Shown here piece by piece: positions 1 to 13,385 of a DNA stretch of 64,000 nt. Below the pieces are notes generated by a model that did no database searches, was not told the DNA's origin, and saw only the letters and a program-made list of their open reading frames with translations. Both the position numbers and the translations under genes were made by a program. Every line of letters begins with the position of its first letter. Positions within the stretch are counted from its first letter, which is position 1. This stretch comes from Chloroflexi bacterium CFX6 (GTDB taxonomy: Bacteria; Chloroflexota; Anaerolineae; Anaerolineales; Villigracilaceae): NCBI GenBank assembly GCA_030263595.1, contig SZPG01000032.1, forward strand, positions 1-64,000. The letters run 5' to 3'.

Positions 1-972
1 CCCAACGCAGATGCCGCACGCGGTGCATTGCTGCGCATTGATGACCGCCAGTTTTTGGTAGCCTGAGTCGTCGTTCCGCTGCACCATGCGGATGGCGTCG
101 TACGGACATTCGGCGTAGCAGAGAACGCATCCCGTACATTTGGCGTCGGTAACGAGAGCAGGTCCCTCGTCACGCCCCGAGGCGAGCCAGGGGAGCAGGA
201 AAAGGCTCCCGCCGACGAGGATCGCAAGTCCCCAGAAGATCACATTGCCCACTTTGTCTATCAATGGGAGGAAGCCGAGGTAATACGCGTCCATCGGCAC
301 GGATTCGACCAGCGTGGAGAGGTCGGCAGGCGCGAAGGATTGGGTGGGCTTGATGAGCGAAAGGACGACCAAGCCGACGACCGCCTGAACGCTCACCCAG
401 CGCGGCGACCACCAGCGGGCGCGCGAGAGGCGCAGTCCGTGAATGTAGATGCCGAGGAACCCGATGAGCGGCAGGAAGACGTGCAGGAAGAGGATGATGA
501 CGAAGTTGGAAAAGGTGCGCGAGGCAATGTCGGGCGCGACATAAGTGAGTCCCGAGGTACCGGCGAGAGTTTCCATCATGTATTCGGTCATCCATTGGGC
601 GCGCAGGTCCCAGACCAGCCAATATCCGAAGGTGCCGACCAGCCAGGTCATCGCCAGCATGATCCAGCCGCTCGTCCACGCCAGCCAGCGCTGACCCCAG
701 AACTTGTCGCTGACGAACATCTTGACGATGTGGAGGACGATCAGGAGCATCATCGCATCGGAGGCATAACGATGCACGCTCCGCATCAGCGAGCCGAACC
801 AATTGGAGTTGATCTTCTCCACGGTTGCATAAGCCACATCCAGCCCGGGGCGGTAGATGATCGTGAGGTACACGCCGGTGGCGATCAGGATGACCAGCAT
901 GAAGATCGTCAGCGTGCCGAGTTTTTCGAGGCTGCGCATGAAGCGTCGTTCGGTGTAGGTCTTTTTGGTCAT
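1..972 (-). CDS. cytochrome b N-terminal domain with C-terminal ferredoxin tail (3' end outside window)
   Basis: Membrane di-heme cytochrome b, likely the quinol-oxidising subunit of a bc-type complex. 324 codons are visible and the frame is still open at the window edge. The two heme-ligand pairs have the family spacing: H67/H81 and H164/H178, each 13 residues apart, in hydrophobic helices. After two or three further membrane segments the chain continues, from about residue 278, into a bacterial ferredoxin domain with CTGCVLCYAECP and then CTACGIC, the second set cut off by the edge. The start ATG follows the copper ATPase gene on the same strand, so it probably belongs to the same operon. 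A cytochrome b carrying its own 4Fe-4S clusters is not the ordinary bc1 layout; electrons could pass to or from a soluble partner, which is inference. Family assignment is firm, partner unknown. Confidence 0.85.
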   Translation of the reverse strand, partial: MTKKTYTERRFMRSLEKLGTLTIFMLVILIATGVYLTIIYRPGLDVAYATVEKINSNWFGSLMRSVHRYASDAMMLLIVLHIVKMFVSDKFWGQRWLAWTSGWIMLAMTWLVGTFGYWLVWDLRAQWMTEYMMETLAGTSGLTYVAPDIASRTFSNFVIILFLHVFLPLIGFLGIYIHGLRLSRARWWSPRWVSVQAVVGLVVLSLIKPTQSFAPADLSTLVESVPMDAYYLGFLPLIDKVGNVIFWGLAILVGGSLFLLPWLASGRDEGPALVTDAKCTGCVLCYAECPYDAIRMVQRNDDSGYQKLAVINAQQCTACGICVG

Positions 973-1119: not shown

Positions 1120-3462
1120 TCACCATTGCCAGCCGGCAAAGACGGGCTGCATCAATCCCGCCATCGCCAGCCCGACGCCGATGAGATTGTAGATGAACGC
1201 CCAGCCGAGGTTTTCCTTCACGCGGCGCATGGCGGTTTTCGAGAGATCGAACAGCCACGGAACCACGCGCAGGTCGTCTCGCATCAACACCACGTCCGCG
1301 GCGGTGCGCGCCACATCCGTGCCGTGATTCATCGCCAGCCCGATCGTGGAGGCGGCAAGCGCGGGACCGTCGTTGATGCCGTCGCCGACCATGGCAGTGT
1401 TCCCGACCAGATGCGACATCTTCTCATCGGGACTCAACCCCGCCTTGACCGAAATCCCCAACGCCTCCTCCCACCTTCGACCTGCCCTCTCCTCGTCGCC
1501 TGTCAACACGCTGAGACCGAGTCCGCGAGAATGCAATTGATGGATCACATCCCTCGCCTCCTCGCGGACCGTCTCACCGAGCCCCACCAACCCCTGGACC
1601 TGCCCGTCCCACCCCGCGAACACAACGACCTGCCCAGCCTCTTTCATCGCTTCCGCTTTTTGTTTCACTTCATTCGAAATCTTCAAGCCTTCCTGCGAGA
1701 TCAAGCGTTCATTGCCAATGAGGACTTCTTTGCCTGCCAATCCCGCCGTTACGCCCAAACCTGGCAGCGCCTTGAACGAGTCCGGCTTGATGAATTCAAC
1801 TTGTTGCGTCTTTGCATACTCAACAATCGCTTTCGCCAGCGGATGTTCCGATTCATTCTCAACCGAAGCGACGATCTGAACGAAACCCTTTTCTGAACTG
1901 CCATCCCACCCTTCGGCGTTGCTCAGGGCATGCTTTCCACTTTCCACTTTCCCAACAGATTTGACTTGCCAAACATACACCTCCCTTACCTTCATCGGCA
2001 ACTTCGTCAACGTCCCCGTCTTATCGAAGAAGACTTGCTCCACCTTCGCCAACCGTTCCAACGCGGAGGTGCTCCGCAGGATGACGCCCGACTCAGCCGC
2101 GCGTCCCAGCGAGAGCCACAACGTCAGCGGGGTTGCCAGCCCCAACGCGCACGGACAGGCGATCAGCAACACGGACAATGCAACGAGCAATCCCTCCTCG
2201 ACGCCGGATTGATGATTCCAAACGAAGAATGCAATCGCCGCCAAACTCAACGCAATGGGAGTCATCCACGCGGAGAGTTTGTCCGCCAGCCGCTCGAGCG
2301 GGGAACGATTCCACAACGCCTCGTGCAGCAAGCGACCGATCTGCCCGGCAGCCGTCGAGTCGCCGACAGCGGTGGCGATGATCTCGAATCCCCCGTCCAG
2401 GCTCAGGGTCCCGGCTTGAACCGCATCGCCGGCGCGATGGGTCACAGGACGCGGCTCACCCGTCAGCAAGGACTCGTCCACGTCTCCCTCGCCCGTCGCG
2501 ATGAGCCCGTCCACAGGGAATTTTTCGCCGGGGCGCACGCGCACGCGTTGACCCGCGCGCAACTCCGAGGCGCGCACGATCTTATCGCCTTTGGACGTTA
2601 CGACCGTTGCCGCATCGGGGATCTGTTCGAGCAGGCGCGTTACCGCCTGATTGCTGGATTTATGCGCCTGCATCTCCAGCCACCTGCCGATGGAAACGAG
2701 AAAGATGAGCATGGTCGCCGTGTCGAAATACAAGCCGCCGTGACCCGCGATCAAATTGCGCACGGATAACCCGAACGCGGAAAACGTCCCGATCGTGATG
2801 AGCGTGTGGATGTTCGGTTGACCGCGCAGTAAACTCGCAAAGCCCGCGCGCAGGATCGGCAGGCCCAGCAGGATCAAAACAGGCAGGCTCGAGACGAGCA
2901 TCATCACCTGAAAGAAATCCACCAATGGCTGCGACTCGGGCGTCACCCAGCCGAAGATCTCGCGCGCGTAGATCCCCGCGCCGATGATCATGTCGTGCAG
3001 GACCATCACGCCGCCGATCAGCAGACGCGTGAAAAACGATTCCTCCTCGTCGTATGGTTTTTCATTGGGAAGAGTGGCTTTGTAGCCGAGCGAACGCACG
3101 CGTTTTTTCAGTAATTTGGAATTGGTAATCGAGGGGTCGAATGTGAGATTTGCCTGATGCTGGATGAAACTGACTTCCGCATCCACCACGCCTTTTGTGC
3201 GTTTGAGTTGTTCGCCGACCAGCCACGCGCAGGACGAGCACCACATCCCGCCCAGGGTGAGGACGACGTTCTCGCTTCGTCCCTCAGCCGAAGCCTGCTT
3301 CCGTTCAATAACTGGACTCTCCGCTAAAAGCGCCGCGACCTCCCTGCACGAGGGACAGCAGAACGCCTCGCCTATCTTGTTCGTGAGCGGATGCAGAGTC
3401 GTCAATCCGCACACCGAGCAGGTGACGAGGGAGCGTGAGGGGGAGGCGGTTGCAAGGGTCAT
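1120..3462 (-). CDS. copper-translocating P-type ATPase, CcoI/FixI-like, C-terminus frameshifted
   Basis: P1B-type ATPase that moves Cu(I) across the membrane, most likely to supply the adjacent oxidase. In order: a Cys cluster (C15, C18, C35, C36, C39) of the type found before the HMA domain in CcoI-like pumps, an HMA domain with GGMWCSSC (C75, C78), membrane helices, the TGE loop (LLTGEP), the CPC metal site (IACPCALG), the phosphorylation loop DKTGTLT, the HP motif (SEHPLAK) and the hinge GDGIND. The reading frame stops at 1120 inside the last membrane helix (PVFAGWQW). The expected last helix (AMVMSSVFVTANAMRM) is encoded in the neighbouring frame and ends at 1037. A single missing base near 1130-1136 (GGCTGG for GGCCTGG on the coding strand) would join them. 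The Cys cluster, HMA and CPC motifs make copper the likely ion. Either a sequencing indel or a recent loss of the last helix. Confidence 0.88.
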   Translation of the reverse strand: MTLATASPSRSLVTCSVCGLTTLHPLTNKIGEAFCCPSCREVAALLAESPVIERKQASAEGRSENVVLTLGGMWCSSCAWLVGEQLKRTKGVVDAEVSFIQHQANLTFDPSITNSKLLKKRVRSLGYKATLPNEKPYDEEESFFTRLLIGGVMVLHDMIIGAGIYAREIFGWVTPESQPLVDFFQVMMLVSSLPVLILLGLPILRAGFASLLRGQPNIHTLITIGTFSAFGLSVRNLIAGHGGLYFDTATMLIFLVSIGRWLEMQAHKSSNQAVTRLLEQIPDAATVVTSKGDKIVRASELRAGQRVRVRPGEKFPVDGLIATGEGDVDESLLTGEPRPVTHRAGDAVQAGTLSLDGGFEIIATAVGDSTAAGQIGRLLHEALWNRSPLERLADKLSAWMTPIALSLAAIAFFVWNHQSGVEEGLLVALSVLLIACPCALGLATPLTLWLSLGRAAESGVILRSTSALERLAKVEQVFFDKTGTLTKLPMKVREVYVWQVKSVGKVESGKHALSNAEGWDGSSEKGFVQIVASVENESEHPLAKAIVEYAKTQQVEFIKPDSFKALPGLGVTAGLAGKEVLIGNERLISQEGLKISNEVKQKAEAMKEAGQVVVFAGWDGQVQGLVGLGETVREEARDVIHQLHSRGLGLSVLTGDEERAGRRWEEALGISVKAGLSPDEKMSHLVGNTAMVGDGINDGPALAASTIGLAMNHGTDVARTAADVVLMRDDLRVVPWLFDLSKTAMRRVKENLGWAFIYNLIGVGLAMAGLMQPVFAGWQW

Positions 3463-3570: not shown

Positions 3571-4242
3571 CTACCAAAGCATGAACGAACCGATCATAAA
3601 ATGCTCAGCCCATCCCAATACCGCAAACCCGCGCATGGCGAACTGAAAGCCGAAGAACATCATGACGAGGGAGGCGAGACTCCTCGACCAGTTTCTTGAA
3701 ACGGTCTTTTGCGCGAGCCATTTGACGGCAAATAAACTCGGTACAGTGGCAAGACCAAATACAACCATGTTTAGCGCGCCTCGTATTGCGCTTCCCGATG
3801 TGATTGCGGGAATCAATGCAGTGAGGACCAATCCGCAGGGGAGCAAACCCCAGAGCAGACCGGCGAGAAACGGGGCGGGGGATCTTAGTCCGCGCATGGT
3901 TTGTCCCCATTTGGAGACGAGGCTCGAAAACAACAACTCGGGCGATCTGGCGATCCCGATGAAAGCGAACGCCATGTAAAAAGCGAGGATGGCGAACAAG
4001 ATGGAGAGAAGTCCCTGCAGGCGCGGCAGGTCGGCGGAGAAAAGGCTCAGGGTCTCGCCGAGCAGGCCCACGGTCAAGCCCAGAAGCGCATACGTGACGA
4101 TGCGTCCCGCGTGGGCGAGAATCCATGAGCGGTTATTTCCCTGAAACGAGGCTTGACGGTCGAGGAGGACGATCACCGCGCTGCACATCCCCACACAATG
4201 ACCGAGACTTCCGAGCAAACCAAGAAGAAAAGACGCCAGCAT
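3571..4242 (-). CDS. TauE/SafE-like (DsbD_2/UreH-type) membrane protein
   Basis: 223-residue polytopic membrane protein starting with LGLLGSLGHCVGMCSAV, the Gly/His/Cys signature of the sulfite exporter TauE/SafE-like, UreH/DsbD_2 family. About six hydrophobic segments are visible. Relatives of this family are commonly next to CcoI-type copper pumps and oxidase genes, and the same arrangement is seen here between subunit I and the copper ATPase. A role in copper delivery or oxidase assembly is therefore likely but is inferred from context. The Cys and His in the first helix could bind copper. A hairpin lies between it and subunit I, so expression may be lower than that of the oxidase genes. 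Confidence 0.75.
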   Translation of the reverse strand: MLASFLLGLLGSLGHCVGMCSAVIVLLDRQASFQGNNRSWILAHAGRIVTYALLGLTVGLLGETLSLFSADLPRLQGLLSILFAILAFYMAFAFIGIARSPELLFSSLVSKWGQTMRGLRSPAPFLAGLLWGLLPCGLVLTALIPAITSGSAIRGALNMVVFGLATVPSLFAVKWLAQKTVSRNWSRSLASLVMMFFGFQFAMRGFAVLGWAEHFMIGSFMLW

Positions 4243-4325: not shown

Positions 4326-6050
4326 TTATCGGATGAACCACGTCCTGCCCAACAGCCACCAGTTGGTGAGGTAATAGACCGCGAACCAGACGAGGAAGGC
4401 AAAGACCAGAACGAGCGTGCCGCGCGGCTGATTCTGCTTGTCCTCCAATTGGTGATCGGTCAGTTTGGTGGACTCGAGCAGGGGATTGTTCGTGCCTGCC
4501 ACGAGGAGCATGTTGCTGGCTTCGAGCCGCGGACCGGTGAGGATGGAGGTCAGCACGACGGTGATGTACATGATGCCGCCGGTGACCGCGATGAGCGCGC
4601 CGATGCCGAAGATGGCGAGGGTGAGGTCAACGGTGCCAGGCACGACGCCTGCAAAGGTGATGTCCCAGTTGCGGCGGGAGACGCCCTGCAAGCCGCTGGT
4701 GATCATGCCGAGGGAGACGAGCAATGTGCCGAAGCCGAACACGTACGGCTGCCAGACCGCCCATTTCTTGAGTTTCAGTTCCTTGCGGAAGATGAGCGGG
4801 ATGACGTAATACGTGAAGCCCATGAAGGCGGTCGTCGTGCCGCCGACCACCGTCGCGTGGAAGTGACCGGGCAGGCGCAGGGTGTTGTGCGCCAGCATGT
4901 TGATCTGCTCGGTGCCGATGGTCACGCCGGTCACGCCGCCGACCCAGCCGAACAGGATCATGGAGGTGACCAGCGCTCCGAAGCCCGGTTCGTTCCACGG
5001 TCCGTTGCGAAGCCAGCCGAACAAGCCTTTGCGGAAACCCTTGGCGCGCAATGCCACTTCCATGGCGGCGGGGATCGAGAAGGCGTGCATCATCGAGCCC
5101 AGCACGGCGAGGTACATCGCGTACGAGGTGTTTACAGCCTTCCAGCCAAACGTCAAACCGGGATCAACAAGAAGGTGATGAGCAGAGCCGAGGTTGATGA
5201 AGAACAGGTACAGGATGAAGGCGAGGCGCGAGAACTTCTCGTTGAGCGGGCGGATGCCGACGGTCATCTGGGCGAGCGAATACCAGATGGCGACCATCGC
5301 CGCCAGGTTGACCTGCTGCGCGGGGTGGCCGAATCCCCAGAAGAAGTTGCGGTAGATGCCCGGGTCGAGGTCCATCAAGCCGAGCGACCAGAGGAAGGCC
5401 GGCACGATTGCCGCCGCGCCCTGCAGAAGCGTGTAGGTGGCGAGAATGGCGGCGGTCATCAAGCCGAACACCACCAGCGGCATGGAACCTTCGAAGCGGG
5501 CTTCGCGTTTGGCGACCACGATGTTGATGAAGAACGTGATCACCGCGATCAACGCGCCGACCGCGAACAGGATGTAACTGAGGTAGAACAACGGATGCGC
5601 CTTGAGCGGCACGTACGCGGTGAAAGTCACGATGCTGTTGGTATCGAACCACACCACGAAGTTCGCCATCAACCCGCCGACGGTCATCAGGATGAAGCCG
5701 AGCCAGGCAAGTTTGGGCGCGGCGTGACGCGCATTCAGCAAAACGGTCGAGCCGAAATGCAGACCTGCCATCTCGAAGAAGACGATCCAGGCGACGAGCA
5801 TGTCAATGCCGTGCAGCGTGAGCAGGCGGTAGAACCAGGTCGCATCCAGCAGGTGGATCGCCTGCCAGCGGGTCAACGCGATCAACAGCGCGGCGATGCC
5901 TCCCAGCGTAAGACAGACCACCGCCATCACCGCGTTGGCGATGATGAGGCGCTCGGTGTGCAGATCCACTTTGAGGGTGGTCACGGGACAGGCGCGATAA
6001 TCGTCCTTTGCGTCCTTTGCCCAGGGGAATGTGGGTGATAATGCGGTCAT
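4326..6050 (-). CDS. B-family heme-copper oxidase subunit I lacking the active-site tyrosine; candidate NO reductase
   Basis: 574-residue protein with about 12-13 membrane helices. Heme and copper ligands are all visible: LHGIDM in helix II, H242 in GFGHPAQQVN, the CuB pair in GSAHHLLVDPG, and the heme pair in RLPGHFHATVVG. The GxxHHxxxDPG spacing and length match B-family (ba3-type) oxidases. The helix VI motif is HPAQQ where O2-reducing A- and B-family enzymes have HPEVY, so the Tyr that cross-links to the CuB His is replaced by Gln246. Within this superfamily, loss of that Tyr is a hallmark of NO reductases, including the B-related eNOR group. The start at 6050 was chosen because GGAGG precedes it by seven bases and it lies 11 nt after the subunit II stop; an upstream in-frame codon would overlap subunit II. 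NO reductase versus oxidase is not proven. Confidence 0.88.
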   Translation of the reverse strand: MTALSPTFPWAKDAKDDYRACPVTTLKVDLHTERLIIANAVMAVVCLTLGGIAALLIALTRWQAIHLLDATWFYRLLTLHGIDMLVAWIVFFEMAGLHFGSTVLLNARHAAPKLAWLGFILMTVGGLMANFVVWFDTNSIVTFTAYVPLKAHPLFYLSYILFAVGALIAVITFFINIVVAKREARFEGSMPLVVFGLMTAAILATYTLLQGAAAIVPAFLWSLGLMDLDPGIYRNFFWGFGHPAQQVNLAAMVAIWYSLAQMTVGIRPLNEKFSRLAFILYLFFINLGSAHHLLVDPGLTFGWKAVNTSYAMYLAVLGSMMHAFSIPAAMEVALRAKGFRKGLFGWLRNGPWNEPGFGALVTSMILFGWVGGVTGVTIGTEQINMLAHNTLRLPGHFHATVVGGTTTAFMGFTYYVIPLIFRKELKLKKWAVWQPYVFGFGTLLVSLGMITSGLQGVSRRNWDITFAGVVPGTVDLTLAIFGIGALIAVTGGIMYITVVLTSILTGPRLEASNMLLVAGTNNPLLESTKLTDHQLEDKQNQPRGTLVLVFAFLVWFAVYYLTNWWLLGRTWFIR

Positions 6051-6061
6051 TTCTTCGCCTC

Positions 6062-6577
6062 CTATTTGACGATGATTTTGCCGACCATGGTGTGGTGACC
6101 CAGGAAACAATATTCATTGCACACGATGGTAAATTCGCCGGTCGTCGTCGGCGTGATCGTCGCCACGTAATCGTAGCCGGGGATCACCTGCAGGTTGATG
6201 TTCACCGGCTGAAGCGAGAACCCATGCTGCAGGTCCATCGAGGAGACGTGCAGGCGGTATTCCTTCCCCTTCTCCAACTGTAAAATGGGATACCACTGCC
6301 AGGTGCTGGCGCGCAGGTACACATCGCTGCCGGGCGGCGCAACCACAGGGATGCCGTTCTCCTCCCCCACCTGATACTTCGCCACAAAATCGTTCACCTT
6401 CGCGGCGAATTCCTGCGGGGTCGTTCTATACGTTTCCGTGGGAACGTTCTGTTTCCCCATGAAATACCAGAGCGGCATCATAATGGTCAGGAAGATGCAC
6501 CAGACCAATGCCACCGTCAGCCAGGTCTTTTCCATGCGACCCATGGGCTTCCACCAGGTTCGTTCCGGAGCCAACAT
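6062..6577 (-). CDS. heme-copper oxidase subunit II with CuA site
   Basis: 171 residues, the short form typical of ba3-like enzymes: one N-terminal membrane anchor (about residues 18-39) and an external cupredoxin domain. The binuclear CuA site is complete: a His in DLQHGFS, then CNEYCFLGHHTM, which gives C-x3-C-x3-H-x2-M. It would accept electrons from a cytochrome c, for instance the lipoprotein cytochrome encoded divergently at 7034. The gene sits between the small membrane subunit and subunit I with gaps of 26 and 11 nt, consistent with one transcript. Confidence 0.92.
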   Translation of the reverse strand: MLAPERTWWKPMGRMEKTWLTVALVWCIFLTIMMPLWYFMGKQNVPTETYRTTPQEFAAKVNDFVAKYQVGEENGIPVVAPPGSDVYLRASTWQWYPILQLEKGKEYRLHVSSMDLQHGFSLQPVNINLQVIPGYDYVATITPTTTGEFTIVCNEYCFLGHHTMVGKIIVK

Positions 6578-6603
6578 AGTTTCTTCTCCTTTTCGCCTTC
6601 CGA

Positions 6604-6762
6604 CTATGGGGCAGGCGGCACGTTCAACAGGTCGTAGATCCCCCAGGCGTTGTAGATCACCCCGCTGATCAACAACGACAACAGAAACAACAGCCAGATG
6701 TTATCGAACAATTTTTGCCACTTCGATGCGGACGCGTCCTCGTGTTTTTCCTTTTCGGACAT
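6604..6762 (-). CDS. small single-span membrane protein, probable oxidase subunit IIa-like
   Basis: 52-residue protein: a charged N-terminus (MSEKEKHEDASASK), then one strongly hydrophobic segment (LLFLLSLLISGVIYNAWGIY). ba3-type oxidases have a very short one-helix subunit IIa, and this gene's size and position directly before subunit II fit that role. The start was set at 6762 because AAGGAG lies about eight bases upstream; the earlier in-frame ATG at 6786 would put that ribosome site inside the coding region. Function is inferred from position only. Confidence 0.7.
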   Translation of the reverse strand: MSEKEKHEDASASKWQKLFDNIWLLFLLSLLISGVIYNAWGIYDLLNVPPAP

Positions 6763-6788
6763 GACATTCTCCTTCCTTTGGATCAAAA

Positions 6789-6804
6789 TGTGTGTAATTT
6801 CACA
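6789..6804. promoter_or_regulatory. CRP/FNR-like box in the oxidase leader
   Basis: TGTGTGTAATTTCACA fits TGTGA-N6-TCACA with one mismatch. It lies 27 bp before the start of the small subunit gene and downstream of the predicted minus-strand transcription start, where a bound protein would be expected to block rather than activate. Confidence 0.45.
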
Positions 6805-6827
6805 AAGTTTGTCTATATACTGTTTTT

Positions 6828-6870
6828 ATGATAGCATTTCGGAAATGAAAAAACTGTAACTAAAGTCACA
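6828..6870 (-). promoter_or_regulatory. predicted class II CRP/FNR-type promoter of the oxidase operon
   Basis: The box TGTAACTAAAGTCACA (6855-6870) matches TGTGA-N6-TCACA with one mismatch. A minus-strand -10 (TATCAT, 6833-6828) would start transcription near 6821, which places the box centre at -41.5, the standard class II activator position. No -35 hexamer is seen, as expected for an activator-dependent promoter. Confidence 0.55.
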
Positions 6871-6948
6871 ATGGGAGGCGCGCCCGCTTCATTCTCCGCC
6901 GGTGGTTGACCCCGTCCGAGGAGCCTTCCCCACGCTGTATGCCCGGCG

Positions 6949-6991
6949 TGTAACTTAAGTCACTGTCGCAAAAGCGCAAATCGCATATACT
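6949..6991 (+). promoter_or_regulatory. predicted class II CRP/FNR-type promoter of the cytochrome c gene
   Basis: The box TGTAACTTAAGTCACT (6949-6964) is nearly identical to the one at 6855, and its core GTAACTTAAGTCAC is a near-perfect palindrome. The -10 TATACT (6986-6991) predicts a start near 6998, again putting the box centre at -41.5. This promoter would drive the cytochrome c at 7034 away from the oxidase operon. Confidence 0.55.
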
Positions 6992-7033
6992 CTGTCACAT
7001 TTCCAAAACAATCAGCCAAACGGAGGCGCGTAC

Positions 7034-7441
7034 ATGAAAAAGAACCTGATCCTGATTCTCACCCTCGGAGCCTTAATCCTTGCCGCATGTGGCGGCGGGG
7101 GCGGATCGTCGGACGAACCCGCGGCGTTGGAGCCCGTCCCAGCCGAATATGCCGGCAAGACCAACCCCCTCGGCGCGGAGGCTGCGGCCGAAGGCGCGAA
7201 AGTGTTCAAGGTCAACTGCGAATCCTGCCATGGTCCCCAGGGTCACGGCGACGGGCCCGCCGGACAGGCGCTCGACCCCAAGCCCAAGAACCTCCCCGAA
7301 CTTGCCGCGCAGGTCGGGGACGATTATCTGTTCTGGCGCGTTGCGGAGGGCAAGCCCGGCACGTCCATGGTCGCCTGGAAGGGCATCCTGACCGACGAGC
7401 AGGTCTGGCAGGCGGTGGCGTTCATCCGCACGCTCAAATAG
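7034..7441 (+). CDS. c-type cytochrome lipoprotein
   Basis: 135 residues. A signal peptide ends in the lipobox LILAACGG, so the protein should be anchored by lipid at Cys19. It is followed by a Gly/Ser linker and a single heme-binding motif CESCHGPQGHGDG, with a C-terminal Met (GTSMVAWKG) as a plausible distal ligand. This is the layout of a small class I cytochrome c. GGAGG lies seven bases before the ATG. It diverges from the oxidase operon and shares its regulatory region, so it is the obvious electron donor to the CuA subunit; that pairing is inference. Confidence 0.9.
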   Translation: MKKNLILILTLGALILAACGGGGGSSDEPAALEPVPAEYAGKTNPLGAEAAAEGAKVFKVNCESCHGPQGHGDGPAGQALDPKPKNLPELAAQVGDDYLFWRVAEGKPGTSMVAWKGILTDEQVWQAVAFIRTLK

Positions 7442-7719: not shown

Positions 7720-10700
7720 ATGGGCTATACTTTGGGCATGAGAAGAGGAACGAAACGGATCTTCTCCCGCGTGATGGGATTCCTCCTCGCTTTCGCGCTG
7801 GTCTCGTGCGGGAACGGGAATCCGCTTCCAGCGACGCCCCAGGCCGATTCCACAGCGACCAGCCTTCCCGAAGTCCCGAACCGGGTTTCTCCGGCCTCCC
7901 TGCCGGAGGTGTGCAACTGCGTCCTGCGCTTCGACCGCCTCGGCATCGAGCAGGGGTTGTCCCAGAGTTCGGTGCGGGTCATCCTCCAGGATCATTTCGG
8001 CTTTTTGTGGTTCGGCACGGAGGACGGACTCAACCGCTACGATGGGTACGAGTTCAAAACGTACAAGCCCGACCCCGATACCCCCACCAGCCTGAGCGAC
8101 CGTTGGATCACCTCCATCGTGGAAGACAGGGAGGGCTATCTGTGGATCGGCACGCGTCAGGGCGGCTTGAACCGCTACGATCCGCGCACGGAACAGTTCA
8201 CGGTCTACCGCCACGACAAGGAAAACCCCTCCAGCATCAGCGACGATCACATCAACGTCCTGTACCTGGACGAGCGGGGCAATCTTTGGATCGGAACGTC
8301 GCAGGGTCTCGATCTTTTCGACGTCACGACCGGGATCGTCACGCGTCATTCCTACGATCCGCTGACGCCGGACAGCCTGACCGGGAAAAGCGTGACCGCC
8401 ATTTTCAAGGATCGCCGCGGGCGGCTTTGGATCGGAACCGCCTCCGGCGGGCTGAATCAATTCAACCCGCAAAGCAAAAAGTTCACGCCATACCTGCACA
8501 ACCCGGAGAACGTCAACTCGATCAGCAACGATTACGTCACCGCGATCCTGGATGCCGGGAATTCGAATCTGTGGGTCGGCACCCGGAACGGATTGAATTA
8601 CTTCGTTCCCGATACCGGCGAGTTCAAGCGCTACGTCCGTTCCGACAACGACGCTCAAAGCATCGCGGGGAATTCGGTCACCGCCCTGTACATGGACGGC
8701 GGCGGCAACCTGTGGATCGGCACGACCAGCGGGCTGGACCGCCTGAGCAGGGCGGAAGGGCGTTTCGTCCATTACAAGAACGATCCCTCCTACGCCAAAA
8801 GCCTGAGCAACGACTACATCCTTTCCATCCACGAGGATCGCGGCGGCGTGCTGTGGTTTGGGACGTATGGCGGCGGCTTGAACAAATACGACCGCCTGCG
8901 CGACAACTTTGCCTATTACCGGCACATCCCGGATGACCCGAACTCATTGAGCGGGAATTTCATCTTTCCCATTCACGTGGATTCGGATGGATACGCGTGG
9001 ATCGGCGCCTTCGGCGCCGGCCTGAACCGCCTGACGTGGTCCACCGGGCAGGTGGTCCGTTACCGTCACGACGACAGAAGGCCGAACAGCATCGCGTCCA
9101 ACATCCTGTATTCGATCCGCGAAGACCAGGACGGCATCCTGTGGATCGCCACAGCCAGCGGGCTGGACCGTTTCGACCGTAAGACAGCCAACTTTTCGCA
9201 TTACCAGCGCGATCCCAACAATCCCGCCAGCCTGAGCGCGAACACCGTCTTCGAAGTCTTTGTGGACAGTTCCAACAACGTGTGGGTGGGGACCGTCGCC
9301 GGGCTGGATCTGATGGACCGCAGGACAAGATCCTTCAAGCATTACACGCCCGAGGTCGGGAACCCCAACAGTTTGAGCGGTTCGGCGGTGGACGTGATCT
9401 ACGAGGACCGCGACGGTTATCTGTGGGTTGGAACCTCGGAAAGCGGATTGAACAGGTTCGATCCCGAAACGGAACAATTCACCCGTTATCGCTTCGACCC
9501 GAACGACAACAGGTCCCTGAGCAACGACTCGATCCTTTCGATCTACCAGGACACAAAAGGACGATTATGGATCGGCACGGGCGGCGGAGGCTTGAACCTG
9601 TACAACCCTGCAACCGATTCGTTTTCCTATTTCCTCGAAAAGGACGGGCTTCCCAACGGCGTCGTCTACGGCATCCTGGAGGACGATCTCGGATACCTGT
9701 GGTTAAGCACGAACTTCGGCATCTCGCGTTTCGACCCGGAAACGCGAACCTTCCGAAACTTCGACGCGGACGACGGCTTGCAGAGCAACGAGTTCAATAC
9801 GGGCGCGTTCGCAAAAGGCGGGGACGGGGAATTCTACTTTGGCGGCATCAACGGGCTGACGGTTTTCCATCCCTTGAACATCATCGAAAACCCCTATACG
9901 CCGCAGATCGCCCTGACGGCGCTCAGGCAGGATAACCAGCCCATCCCCACAGCCTCGAGCGTCGAGACCGTAAAGCAGGTGGTGTTGGTATGGCCCCAGA
10001 ACTCGCTCGAGTTCGAATTTGCGGCGTTGAGTTACAGCCAGCCCGAAAAGAATCAATACGCCTATTTCCTGGAGGGTTTCGACTCGAACTGGCATTACAT
10101 CGGCGCCAAAAGGGACGGGCGCTACACCAACCTGCCCGGCGGCGAATACACGTTATTGTTGAAAGCCGCGAACAGCAACGGGGTCTGGAATGAAACGCCC
10201 GTCCGCATTGACGTGAAGGTCGTTCCCCCGTTCTGGCAGACGGCGTGGTTTCGCGTAATGCTGGCGGCTTTCGGGATCGCAGCGGTCGCGGTCGGCATCC
10301 GCCTGCGCACCAGGGCGATCCAGGATCACAACCGCCAATTGGAGCGTCTCGTCCGTGAACGGACCAGCGCCCTCGAAAAACGCAGCCAGGAGATCCAGGC
10401 GCTCTATCAAGCCGACGAACGCATCCTGCGAAACGTCAGCCTGCAGCAGGTCTTCCAAACGCTCGTGGACGTGGCGGTGGATACGCTCGACGCCGACCGC
10501 AGCGTGGTTTTTGCCTGGGATGAAAGAAAGACCAGGCTCGTTCCGCGCGTCAGCCGCGGTTTCTCGCCTGAAACGCTCAAGGTGTTCCAGTTCGCGAAGG
10601 GCGAAGGGATCGTGGGCAGGGCGCTGGAAACGGGCAAGCCCGCCATCGTGCGGCAGATCGAATTGCGCGACTTCCGCCCGGATATACGCGAGGCGCTCAT

Positions 10701-11499
10701 CAAGGAAGGCATCCGTTCGTTCGCGCACATCCCCATCGTCGTGGATAACAAGGTCGTCGGCGTGTTCAACGTCGGCTTTACCAAGCCAAGCCTGATCGGC
10801 GACGATTCCATCCGCCTGTTCTCCGCGCTCACCCACCGCGCTTCGATCGCCATCGCCAACATGGAACTCTTCGAACAGACGAAGGACCTGGCGGTGATGG
10901 AGGAACGGAACCGCCTCGCGCGCGACCTGCACGACAGCGCCAAACAAAAAGCCTTCGCGGCGCTCGCGCAGCTCGGCGCGGCGCGCGGCACCCTGAACGA
11001 CAACGGTAGTAATGCGGCGGGTTTGCATCTCGGCGAGGCGGAGAATCTCGTTTCGGACGTGATCCAGGAACTGACCTTCCTCGTGCAGGAGATCTATCCC
11101 ATCGCATTGCAGGAGAAGGGACTGGCAGCCATTCTGCGCGAATACATCTTCGAATGGGAAAATCGCAACGACATTACGGTCAACCTGGCTGTGCATAAGG
11201 AGCGCCGCCTGCCCCTCAACATCGAGCAGGCGATCTATCGCGTGATACAGGAGGCGCTCGCAAACGTGGCGCGTCACAGCCGGGCGCGCCGCGTGGACAT
11301 TTCCCTCGTGTACAACGAGGATACCTTGCAACTTTCCGTGGCGGACGACGGACGCGGTTTCGACATGGAATTGAAGGGGCATGGGTTGGGATTCCGCTCC
11401 ATTCGCGAACGCGTGGGCAGTATCCGCGGCACAGTACATTTCCAGAGCGCGCCCGGGCAGGGAACACGGATCTTCGTCCAGGCGCCAACCAGAAATTAA
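7720..11499 (+). CDS. propeller-domain hybrid sensor histidine kinase (Reg_prop, Y_Y_Y, GAF, HisKA_3)
   Basis: 1259 residues. An N-terminal signal peptide ends in ALVSCGNG (Cys30), a possible lipobox. Then come 14 blade motifs of the two-component propeller type (WIGTxxGGLNRYD and variants, residues about 95-715), enough for two seven-blade propellers, followed by a Y_Y_Y domain (about 750-835), one membrane helix (837-863), a short coiled coil and a GAF domain (from about 897). The kinase core is of the NarX/DesK type: H1071 in ARDLHDS, then an ATPase domain with N-box AIYRVIQEALANVARHS and DDGRGFD. The external part probably binds a polymer or glycan, as in better known propeller kinases; the ligand is unknown. 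The response regulator follows 13 nt downstream. GGGAGG precedes the ATG at 7720 at short spacing; the ATG at 7738 is an alternative start. Confidence 0.92.
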   Translation: MGYTLGMRRGTKRIFSRVMGFLLAFALVSCGNGNPLPATPQADSTATSLPEVPNRVSPASLPEVCNCVLRFDRLGIEQGLSQSSVRVILQDHFGFLWFGTEDGLNRYDGYEFKTYKPDPDTPTSLSDRWITSIVEDREGYLWIGTRQGGLNRYDPRTEQFTVYRHDKENPSSISDDHINVLYLDERGNLWIGTSQGLDLFDVTTGIVTRHSYDPLTPDSLTGKSVTAIFKDRRGRLWIGTASGGLNQFNPQSKKFTPYLHNPENVNSISNDYVTAILDAGNSNLWVGTRNGLNYFVPDTGEFKRYVRSDNDAQSIAGNSVTALYMDGGGNLWIGTTSGLDRLSRAEGRFVHYKNDPSYAKSLSNDYILSIHEDRGGVLWFGTYGGGLNKYDRLRDNFAYYRHIPDDPNSLSGNFIFPIHVDSDGYAWIGAFGAGLNRLTWSTGQVVRYRHDDRRPNSIASNILYSIREDQDGILWIATASGLDRFDRKTANFSHYQRDPNNPASLSANTVFEVFVDSSNNVWVGTVAGLDLMDRRTRSFKHYTPEVGNPNSLSGSAVDVIYEDRDGYLWVGTSESGLNRFDPETEQFTRYRFDPNDNRSLSNDSILSIYQDTKGRLWIGTGGGGLNLYNPATDSFSYFLEKDGLPNGVVYGILEDDLGYLWLSTNFGISRFDPETRTFRNFDADDGLQSNEFNTGAFAKGGDGEFYFGGINGLTVFHPLNIIENPYTPQIALTALRQDNQPIPTASSVETVKQVVLVWPQNSLEFEFAALSYSQPEKNQYAYFLEGFDSNWHYIGAKRDGRYTNLPGGEYTLLLKAANSNGVWNETPVRIDVKVVPPFWQTAWFRVMLAAFGIAAVAVGIRLRTRAIQDHNRQLERLVRERTSALEKRSQEIQALYQADERILRNVSLQQVFQTLVDVAVDTLDADRSVVFAWDERKTRLVPRVSRGFSPETLKVFQFAKGEGIVGRALETGKPAIVRQIELRDFRPDIREALIKEGIRSFAHIPIVVDNKVVGVFNVGFTKPSLIGDDSIRLFSALTHRASIAIANMELFEQTKDLAVMEERNRLARDLHDSAKQKAFAALAQLGAARGTLNDNGSNAAGLHLGEAENLVSDVIQELTFLVQEIYPIALQEKGLAAILREYIFEWENRNDITVNLAVHKERRLPLNIEQAIYRVIQEALANVARHSRARRVDISLVYNEDTLQLSVADDGRGFDMELKGHGLGFRSIRERVGSIRGTVHFQSAPGQGTRIFVQAPTRN

Positions 11500-11512
11500 G
11501 AAAGAGGCGATC

Positions 11513-12187
11513 ATGCCAAAACACAACACCATCAGCATTCTGATCGTGGACGACCACGAGGTGGTCCGAAACGGCATTCGTTCATATCTTCAAACGATCA
11601 AGGATTTCGAGGTGGTCGGGGAGGCGGAATCGGGCGAGGTTGCCGTCAAACTTGTCTCCGAATTGATACCGGATATCGTCCTGCTCGACCTGATCATGCC
11701 CGGCATGGACGGCGTGGAAACGACGCGGCAAATCAAGAAGATCAGCCCGCGCACGCAGGTCGTGGTGTTGACGTCGTACCACGAGGACGTGCACATCTTC
11801 CCGGCGTTGAAGGCCGGGGCGAACTCTTATATTCTCAAGGACATGAAGATGGAAAAACTGGCGGAAGCGCTGCAACGGGCGGTGCGCCACGAAGTAACCC
11901 TGCATCCGCTGGTTGCCGAACGCGTCCTGCGAAACATCCGCGGCGACGACAACGAGGAACTCGCGCTGTTCACCGAACTGACCGAGCGCGAACTGGACGT
12001 GCTGCGGTTGATTGCCAAGGGCATGACCAACAGCCAGATCGCGGAGGCCCTCGTGATCAGCGAGAACACGGTCAAGGGACACGTGAGCAACATCCTGAGC
12101 AAATTGCACCTGGCAGACCGCACGCAGGTGGCGGTCTATGCGTGGCAGAGGGGGCTGGTCAACAAGGACCAAATGTCGAAGAAGTGA
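11513..12187 (+). CDS. NarL/FixJ-family response regulator
   Basis: 224 residues. Receiver domain with acidic pair D13/D14, phosphoacceptor D59 (IVLLDLIMPGMDG) and K109. The C-terminal LuxR-type helix-turn-helix reads LTERELDVLRLIAKGMTNSQ, ending in VKGHVSNILSKLHLADRTQ. It lies 13 nt behind the HisKA_3 sensor kinase, which is the usual partner class, so the two form a complete two-component pair. The start at 11513 is preceded by AAGAGG; an upstream in-frame start would overlap the kinase heavily. Targets are unknown. Confidence 0.95.
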   Translation: MPKHNTISILIVDDHEVVRNGIRSYLQTIKDFEVVGEAESGEVAVKLVSELIPDIVLLDLIMPGMDGVETTRQIKKISPRTQVVVLTSYHEDVHIFPALKAGANSYILKDMKMEKLAEALQRAVRHEVTLHPLVAERVLRNIRGDDNEELALFTELTERELDVLRLIAKGMTNSQIAEALVISENTVKGHVSNILSKLHLADRTQVAVYAWQRGLVNKDQMSKK

Positions 12188-12279: not shown

Positions 12280-12834
12280 TTAAACCCTCCAGTATTCGCC
12301 TCCCCCGCCTTCGCGCTGCATCAACCCGGCGCCGACCAATTCGCGCCGCAACGCGGCGGTGTCTTCGTGATACTTCGAGAGGATCTCGTTGACGCGCTTT
12401 TCGCTGTACCGTTTGCCGACCTCGAACGATTTCACGACATACCGCAGGATGGCGTCGAGTTTTTTGCGCTGGGCGGGGATGGTCTTCAAACTGCCGTCGC
12501 GCCGCGTGTAATCCTTGATCACCTTTTTATCGTAGGCATCCGCATCCACCTCGGCGGTGACGGCGGAGAGTTCCTCCTTCGAAAAGATGACGCGAGACTT
12601 TTCCTCCAGCGCCTTTCGATCCAGTTGATAGACGCTGTAATAACTTTCGGGGCGCGACTGCACCAATCCCGCCTCGGAAAGTTTGGAGAGGTGATGCGAG
12701 ACCGTGGAGGGTTTGAGTTTCAACAGCGCGGCGAGTTCCTCCACGCTATAGGGTTTTTCCGCAAGCAAGCCCACGATCTTGAGGCGGTTCGCGTCCGCCA
12801 GCGCTTTGAAAAAGGCGACGAGTTCTTCGCTCAC
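12280..12834 (-). CDS. ArsR-like winged-helix regulator with DUF2087 domain (second of pair)
   Basis: 184 residues. N-terminal ArsR-type helix-turn-helix (FFKALADANRLKIVGLLAE, then SVEELAALLKLKPSTVSHHL). The C-terminal half (about 95-184) is a DUF2087-type domain with PAQRKKLDAILRYV, RYSEKRVNEIL and DTAALRRELV. No Cys or His cluster is present in the recognition region, so it is not an obvious metal sensor. Its ATG overlaps the stop of the upstream paralogue by four bases, so the two are translationally coupled. DNA binding is confident; the signal and targets are not known. Confidence 0.85.
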   Translation of the reverse strand: MSEELVAFFKALADANRLKIVGLLAEKPYSVEELAALLKLKPSTVSHHLSKLSEAGLVQSRPESYYSVYQLDRKALEEKSRVIFSKEELSAVTAEVDADAYDKKVIKDYTRRDGSLKTIPAQRKKLDAILRYVVKSFEVGKRYSEKRVNEILSKYHEDTAALRRELVGAGLMQREGGGGEYWRV

Positions 12835-13385
12835 GGCAGCGTCTCCTTTTTCACGCGCCAGTATTTCGAGCCGTCGCTTTCGCGCGCCATGAGACCGTGG
12901 TCTACGAGGTAACGTCGCAGGGCGGCTGTGTCCGGGTTGAAGCGTCGCAGGATGGCGTTGACTTCCTTCTCCGTATAGGTCGCATCGAACGCGAACACTT
13001 CCACGATGAAGTTCAAGATGACGAGCAGTTTCTTCGTCTCCAGCGGGATGTGACGGAGCGTGCCGTCGGCGTTGAGGTACGCCTTCAACACCTTGCGAAC
13101 ATTCTCCGCTTGTTCCTCGTATTGCAGGCGATCCTCTTTCAACTGCCCGCGCGCGAGCGATTCGACGGCTTTCTCGTCCAATTCGTAGATACCGTCCGCT
13201 TCACGGACGACGCCCGCGTGCGCGAGAAAAGACAGATGCTGGAACACGTCCCGCACGGGGACGTGCAACTGCTCGGCGATTTCAGCCTGGGTGGCGCGAC
13301 CGCGCGCCAACACGCCGATCACGCGCAAGCGTTCGGCTGAGGCCATGGCTTTGACGAAATCCATCACTTCGGGTTGGGGTTCCAT
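12831..13385 (-). CDS. ArsR-like winged-helix regulator with DUF2087 domain (first of pair)
   Basis: 184 residues with the same build as the downstream gene: an N-terminal winged helix (MASAERLRVIGVLARG, TQAEIAEQLHVPVRDVFQHL) and a C-terminal DUF2087-type part (LETKKLLVILNFIVEVF, TYTEKEVNAILRRFN, DTAALRRYLVDHGLMAR). The two copies share clear sequence similarity, so the pair arose by duplication and may form a heterodimer, which is inference. A palindrome 16-39 bp upstream is a likely site of autoregulation. Confidence 0.85.
   Translation of the reverse strand: MEPQPEVMDFVKAMASAERLRVIGVLARGRATQAEIAEQLHVPVRDVFQHLSFLAHAGVVREADGIYELDEKAVESLARGQLKEDRLQYEEQAENVRKVLKAYLNADGTLRHIPLETKKLLVILNFIVEVFAFDATYTEKEVNAILRRFNPDTAALRRYLVDHGLMARESDGSKYWRVKKETLP

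Follow-up and report, generated by a model that had tools for sequence, protein, structure and literature searches.

A predicted eNOR-type nitric oxide reductase in a conserved operon of an Anaerolineales genome

The closest described relatives of the enzyme considered here belong to the eNOR family of heme-copper enzymes, which is reportedly covered by Hemp and Gennis (2008), Hemp (2015), Schwartz (2022), and Murali (2024). In this superfamily, electrons pass from CuA to the low-spin heme and then to the binuclear center; to cleave the O-O bond, a cross-linked tyrosine must supply a fourth electron as well as a proton, whereas the joining of two NO molecules has no such requirement. Members of the eNOR family have glutamine in place of this tyrosine, six ligand histidines, and a cupredoxin/CuA subunit II encoded immediately upstream of subunit I, and they are reported in Anaerolineales, other Chloroflexota, Proteobacteria, and Archaea. 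Glutamine at the active-site tyrosine position is the published diagnostic of eNOR (PMC8756737), other NO reductases (NORs) having asparagine (sNOR and CuANOR/bNOR), aspartate (gNOR), or glutamate (cNOR/qNOR) there (PMC8756737, Table A4), and reports of eNOR in Anaerolineales already exist on the basis of the glutamine criterion (PMC8756737). A later paper, which cites Murali et al. 2024, places eNOR, as a B-related enzyme, among the four biochemically characterized NOR families (PMC11388526). An eNOR has also been reported in an operon with nirK in Ardenticatena (PMC4653789). General facts on eNOR are already published, and the family is common in relatives of the organism studied here.

The window, a stretch of 64,000 nucleotides, covers the opening 64 kb of contig C130 in the 4.07-Mb draft genome of Chloroflexi bacterium CFX6. 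Subunit I of the eNOR-type enzyme (heme b and heme b3-CuB) is encoded on the minus strand at 4326..6050 and has 574 amino acids (Pfam COX1, 3e-59); the reading frame is open over 4326-6110, and the ATG at 6050 is the likeliest start. All six histidines that serve as ligands of the low-spin heme, CuB, and the high-spin heme were found (H80, H242, H291, H292, H396, and H398). The helix VI active-site motif, H242-P-A-Q-Q246 (5313..5327, minus strand), carries glutamine at the cross-linked tyrosine site: relative to ba3 numbering, Y237 has become Q246 and Y244 has become V253, with Y248 retained as Y257. An ordinary oxidase with its tyrosine elsewhere in helix VI was rejected, since Y257 is the equivalent of ba3 Y248 and lies too far along the helix. 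The C-family O2 reductases have an alternative cross-linked tyrosine on helix VII; by eye, no tyrosine was present in the segment FFINLGSAHH just before H291-H292, in an alignment consisting of sequences from outside the C family. An AF2 model of subunit I built with 21 sequences (pLDDT 74, pTM 0.80) matched heme-copper subunit I chains with Z scores of about 30-33 over 450-480 residues, with identities of 22-25% to B-family and 14-20% to A-family chains. This predicted structure confirms the heme-copper fold, but because A- and B-family chains lie within about 2 Z units of each other, it does not discriminate between the families.

The active-site change is a constant feature of the group. 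Five positions (E93, Q245, Q246, N248, and H322) separate the glutamine-type enzymes from A- and B-family oxidases with no exception in our sample, each being invariant in 30/30 glutamine-type proteins. Position 246 is tyrosine in every one of the sampled oxidases (14 B-family and 8 A-family), where the motif ends in VY (22/22) rather than QQ, and position 322, which we take to be the key residue of the K channel, is lysine in 8/8 A-family and threonine in 14/14 B-family proteins. Such conservation on both sides argues that the glutamine is due neither to chance nor to sequencing error. A sequencing error or pseudogene was rejected also because the frame is intact and more than 30 Anaerolineales genomes encode the protein at 98-82% identity.

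Those close relatives come from metagenome-assembled genomes labeled Anaerolineales or Chloroflexi; beyond them, subunit I is about 50-54% identical in Nitrospinota/Nitrospirota. The nearest proteins on annotated plasmids were those of Thermomicrobium roseum (54%), Defluviimonas (48%), and Thermus thermophilus (47%), and haloarchaeal and other ba3 oxidases on such plasmids reached 30-34%. A tree was built from 54 proteins, the A-family oxidases serving as the outgroup; in it, the 30 glutamine-bearing enzymes, which come from Chloroflexota, Nitrospinota/Nitrospirota, a Thermus plasmid, and Defluviimonas, all fell into one clade (support, 99/98). The 14 sampled tyrosine-bearing B-family proteins were monophyletic without the window protein (99/99), so that the glutamine clade is their sister and does not lie inside them; a second tree built with other rows agreed (glutamine clade, 100/99). 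Together, the diagnostic residue, the metal ligands, the tree placement, and the overlap in taxa, rather than an alignment with the purified Rhodothermus enzyme, support assignment of the window enzyme to eNOR, a family described previously, and not to a new kind of enzyme. It shares with that family the glutamine, the six histidines, and the upstream CuA subunit, and we found no difference in kind. Neither NCBIfam nor Pfam tells eNOR apart from CtaD/COX1.

A preliminary description of this DNA had read subunit I in the same way with regard to the six histidines, the HPAQQ motif from H242 to Q246, and the loss of ba3 Y244 with retention of the last tyrosine of helix VI. It had named eNOR as the nearest match, which the glutamine, the ligands, and the tree bear out, and had allowed that the protein might instead fall inside the O2-reducing B family with an equivalent tyrosine; we found a sister clade and Q246. 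Its label "B-family" captures a real relationship, although eNOR, B-related and sister to the B family, is the better name. The proposed function, likely NO reductase, is supported by the glutamine, the tree, and the host nir and narG genes, with NO reduction itself being predicted from sequence.

Directly upstream of the subunit I gene is a gene for a CuA-bearing cupredoxin subunit II in the ba3-like short form (6062..6577, minus strand; 171 amino acids), whose best PDB match is subunit II of Thermus thermophilus ba3 (6e-15). The ligand region, H118...C153-N-E-Y-C157...H161..M164 (6086..6226, minus strand), contains a complete CuA set of H118, C153, E155 (the carbonyl position), C157, H161, and M164; the two histidines, both cysteines, and the methionine were invariant among 18 aligned subunit II proteins, and Glu16 of subunit II is likewise invariant. 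Preceding it is a gene for a subunit IIa-like protein with one hydrophobic helix (6604..6786, minus strand; ATG at 6762; 51-60 amino acids), which has a homologue at the same place, before subunit II, in almost every Anaerolineales locus, with further homologues (29-38%) in Nitrospinota, Thermomicrobium, and Defluviimonas. The complete CuA site, the short ba3-like subunit II, and the preceding one-helix gene had all been recognized in the preliminary description.

The minus-strand gene order is IIa-like, II, I, DsbD_2, Cu P-type ATPase, and cytochrome b-4Fe4S. The DsbD_2-family membrane protein (3571..4242, minus strand; Pfam DsbD_2, 4e-41), a probable assembly factor that the preliminary description did not mention, follows subunit I directly in relatives as well. 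The heavy-metal (Cu) P-type ATPase (1120..3462, minus strand) is FixI/CcoI-like, scores above the cutoff of NCBIfam ATPase-IB1_Cu, has a Cys-rich N terminus with an HMA domain, and is conserved in the operon; it probably supplies copper for CuB and CuA. The last gene encodes a cytochrome b-2x[4Fe-4S] protein (1..972, minus strand; Pfam Cytochrome_B and Fer4_7) that is cut by the contig start; in relatives the protein has about 700 amino acids, and it is complete in L006 (12209-14311). A divergently transcribed gene for a lipoprotein-like monoheme cytochrome c (7034..7441, plus strand; Pfam Cytochrome_CBB3, 3e-13), a candidate electron donor to CuA, is conserved next to the operon in part of the Anaerolineales loci.

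The copper pump and the cytochrome b-ferredoxin protein had been noted before, but the claim that they make a new operon layout was an overstatement. The order from IIa to cytochrome b-ferredoxin recurs across Anaerolineales loci, being common to dozens of relatives, and is therefore not peculiar to this genome, even though the full operon (with IIa, the DsbD-like protein, the Cu ATPase, and cytochrome b-ferredoxin) was not described in the eNOR literature that we examined. In Nitrospinota/Nitrospirota (31-37% identical) and Defluviimonas (37%), too, eNOR is followed by a cytochrome b gene, and at three Anaerolineae loci (L066, L067, and L069) the cytochrome b-ferredoxin gene comes after a ba3-type oxidase, so this protein is an old, shared partner.

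A search of 6787-7033, which separates the cytochrome c and IIa genes, for an FNR/DNR-type site (TTGAT-N4-ATCAA, allowing 2 mismatches) gave no match, and no such site was conserved among the relatives. Adjoining the operon on the plus strand (7720-12187) are genes for a Reg_prop/Y_Y_Y/GAF/HisKA_3 sensor kinase and a LuxR/NarL-type response regulator. They were rejected as the operon's own regulators, since clear orthologues occur only in the closest relative, L005 (96%), and a few other relatives have genes that are 25-44% similar. Also in the window, on the minus strand (12283-13385), are two adjacent, similar ArsR-like regulators of 184 amino acids, each with a helix-turn-helix followed by a DUF2087-like tail, which apparently arose by tandem duplication.

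A profile search of the host genome identified nirK on contig C120 and nirS on C11, both above the cutoff, as well as narG, which is split between C1 and C118. A full-length nosZ was not found in the genome, where the matches covered the CuA domain only, and no other NOR was present among its PF00115 matches; a PF00115 fragment on C107 was rejected as a second NOR because it is a small COX1-like membrane protein beside a UbiA gene. With a completeness of about 91% and a contamination of 4.9% for this genome, such absences are soft. Nevertheless, the presence of narG, nirK, and nirS together with the absence of nosZ and of another NOR fits reduction of NO to N2O as the last step in this host, and the simplest reading is a pathway from nitrate to N2O (NarG, NirK/NirS, and eNOR, with no NosZ) that ends at the window enzyme. 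The NirS domain of the host, which coexists with nirK in the same genome, lies in an 823-amino-acid frame (G000:C11:51541-52713) compatible with a published Chloroflexi cytochrome-NirS fusion.

From these observations, the enzyme is very probably a three-part heme-copper eNOR (I, II, and IIa-like), with NO as its predicted substrate; in this bacterium it would terminate a nitrate-to-N2O pathway. The electron route, proton uptake, and accessory-gene roles that we infer are as follows. Electrons would pass from quinol to the monoheme cytochrome c outside the membrane, to CuA of subunit II, to the low-spin heme (H80/H398), and on to the high-spin heme (H396) and CuB (H242, H291, and H292), where two NO, two electrons, and two protons would give N2O and H2O. 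Loss of the tyrosine, with Gln246 instead, would be tolerated because joining two NO needs no electron or proton from that residue. Protons would probably enter from the cytoplasmic side by the one channel expected of an eNOR, a K-path analogue of modified B type made up of Glu16 of subunit II and Y257, S319, H322, and S325 of subunit I, leading toward Gln246; among the analogues of the K-path residues, Glu16, Y257, and S319 are conserved, T312 is replaced by the invariant H322, and Y244 is lost. The DsbD-like protein and the Cu ATPase may load copper; a probable role for the cytochrome b-ferredoxin protein is to connect the enzyme with the quinol pool or with a soluble reductant. It is tempting, if rather unlikely, to see in H322 the sign of a proton-conducting, energy-conserving NOR with cytochrome b-ferredoxin as its dedicated electron-input module; if so, NO respiration in Anaerolineales would conserve energy, unlike that by cNOR and qNOR.

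The same chemistry could instead serve detoxification, with NO from outside as the inducer and no coupling to growth, as opposed to a respiratory, energy-conserving NOR. In a hand tally of 61 relatives, nir genes were found in 11 of the 17 eNOR genomes and in 22 of the 44 others, and neither nirK nor nirS was found in the remaining 6 of the 17; this absence of a clear association leaves room for detoxification of outside NO or for another substrate. The operon in the window has no nir gene, and an eNOR-type enzyme adjoins nirK in the relatives G038 and G105. Against detoxification, the host itself carries narG, nirK, and nirS, the conserved K-path-like residues suggest coupled proton uptake, and the dedicated cytochromes b and c suggest a respiratory chain. 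We therefore consider detoxification a serious possibility, though one with the balance of the evidence against it.

An O2 reductase of low or specialized activity that works without the cross-linked tyrosine, such as an O2 scavenger in anaerobes, would account for the B-related fold, the CuA site, the K-path-like residue set, and the cytochrome c neighbor, and the B-family O2 reductases at L066, L067, and L069 also adjoin a cytochrome b-ferredoxin gene. The best PDB sequence matches are ba3 O2 reductases (Thermus thermophilus 1EHK/1XME and Aquifex 7DEG), which have the same short CuA subunit II, single-helix IIa-type partner, and subunit II glutamate at the entrance of the K path. However, ba3 has both the helix VI tyrosine and Y244, which the window enzyme has lost, and T312 in place of His322; the helix VI site is without tyrosine in all 30 relatives, the O2-reducing B-family enzymes form a separate clade, and a related eNOR is characterized as an NO reductase, according to the later paper cited above (PMC11388526). 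An O2 reductase is thus very improbable.

Membership in a different tyrosine-less, B-related NOR family (bNOR/CuANOR, sNOR, gNOR, or nNOR), all of which have cupredoxin subunits and one of which, the CuANOR/bNOR of Bacillus azotoformans, is likewise CuA bearing, is hardly credible, since the published residues are Asn (CuANOR and sNOR) or Asp (gNOR) and not Gln (PMC8756737), in a comparison by published residues that covers CuANOR/bNOR, sNOR, and gNOR, and since the tree places the sNOR-like HTLVN protein of L136 at a great distance. The cNOR/qNOR enzymes differ further, having an active-site Glu and a cytochrome c subunit or fused quinol module where the window enzyme has Q246 and a CuA subunit.

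Several relatives carry unusual heme-copper genes outside the window. In six Chloroflexota genomes (G038, G052, G059, G105, G262, and G182), a second COX1-like gene follows the eNOR-type subunit I gene directly or after one gene (L096, 6770-8347, plus strand; L097, 5146-6594, minus strand; L098, 6707-8206, minus strand; L134, 7450-8931, plus strand; L136, 7204-8673, plus strand; and L118 in G262:C40). The encoded proteins keep the heme histidines of helices II and X and the helix VI histidine but lack the helix VII His-His pair (CuB) and H388, one histidine being left in the G182 copy (L136). In the tree they group together (100/100) on the side of eNOR, although with long branches and an unsure exact position, and nirK lies near the gene pair in G038, G059, and G105. 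The second protein is possibly a two-heme electron-transfer partner, and we found no account of it in the eNOR literature examined. The catalytic subunit I of G059 (L098, 8222-9880, minus strand) has the motif HTLQY, in which Gln occupies +3 and Tyr occupies +4, together with all CuB ligands; it has the eNOR-type E93, N248, and H322, branches beside the eNOR clade, and is flanked by two nirK genes, and it may stand midway between O2 reductases and eNOR or be an enzyme of its own. A glutamine-type protein on the Thermus thermophilus plasmid pTthSNM6-6b (L079, 8980-10665) has HFK instead of HFH in helix X, such that a low-spin heme histidine ligand appears to be replaced by lysine; its neighbors are cytochrome P460, Rrf2, and DUF542 genes. 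The sNOR-like HTLVN-type subunit I of L136 (1725-3317, minus strand), with Asn at the tyrosine site, is encoded beside an eNOR on the same Chloroflexota contig.

Two features deserve attention: the invariant histidine (H322) at the key K-channel position and the second heme-copper subunit in six Chloroflexota genomes. The signature residues E93, Q245, Q246, N248, and H322 can be used to annotate eNOR. The window adds a clean case of this family: its operon context is conserved, and its host genome would take the pathway no further than N2O. As eNOR genes are usually labeled cytochrome c oxidase, it is likely that too little N2O production is credited to the Chloroflexota of bioreactors, groundwater, and lakes.
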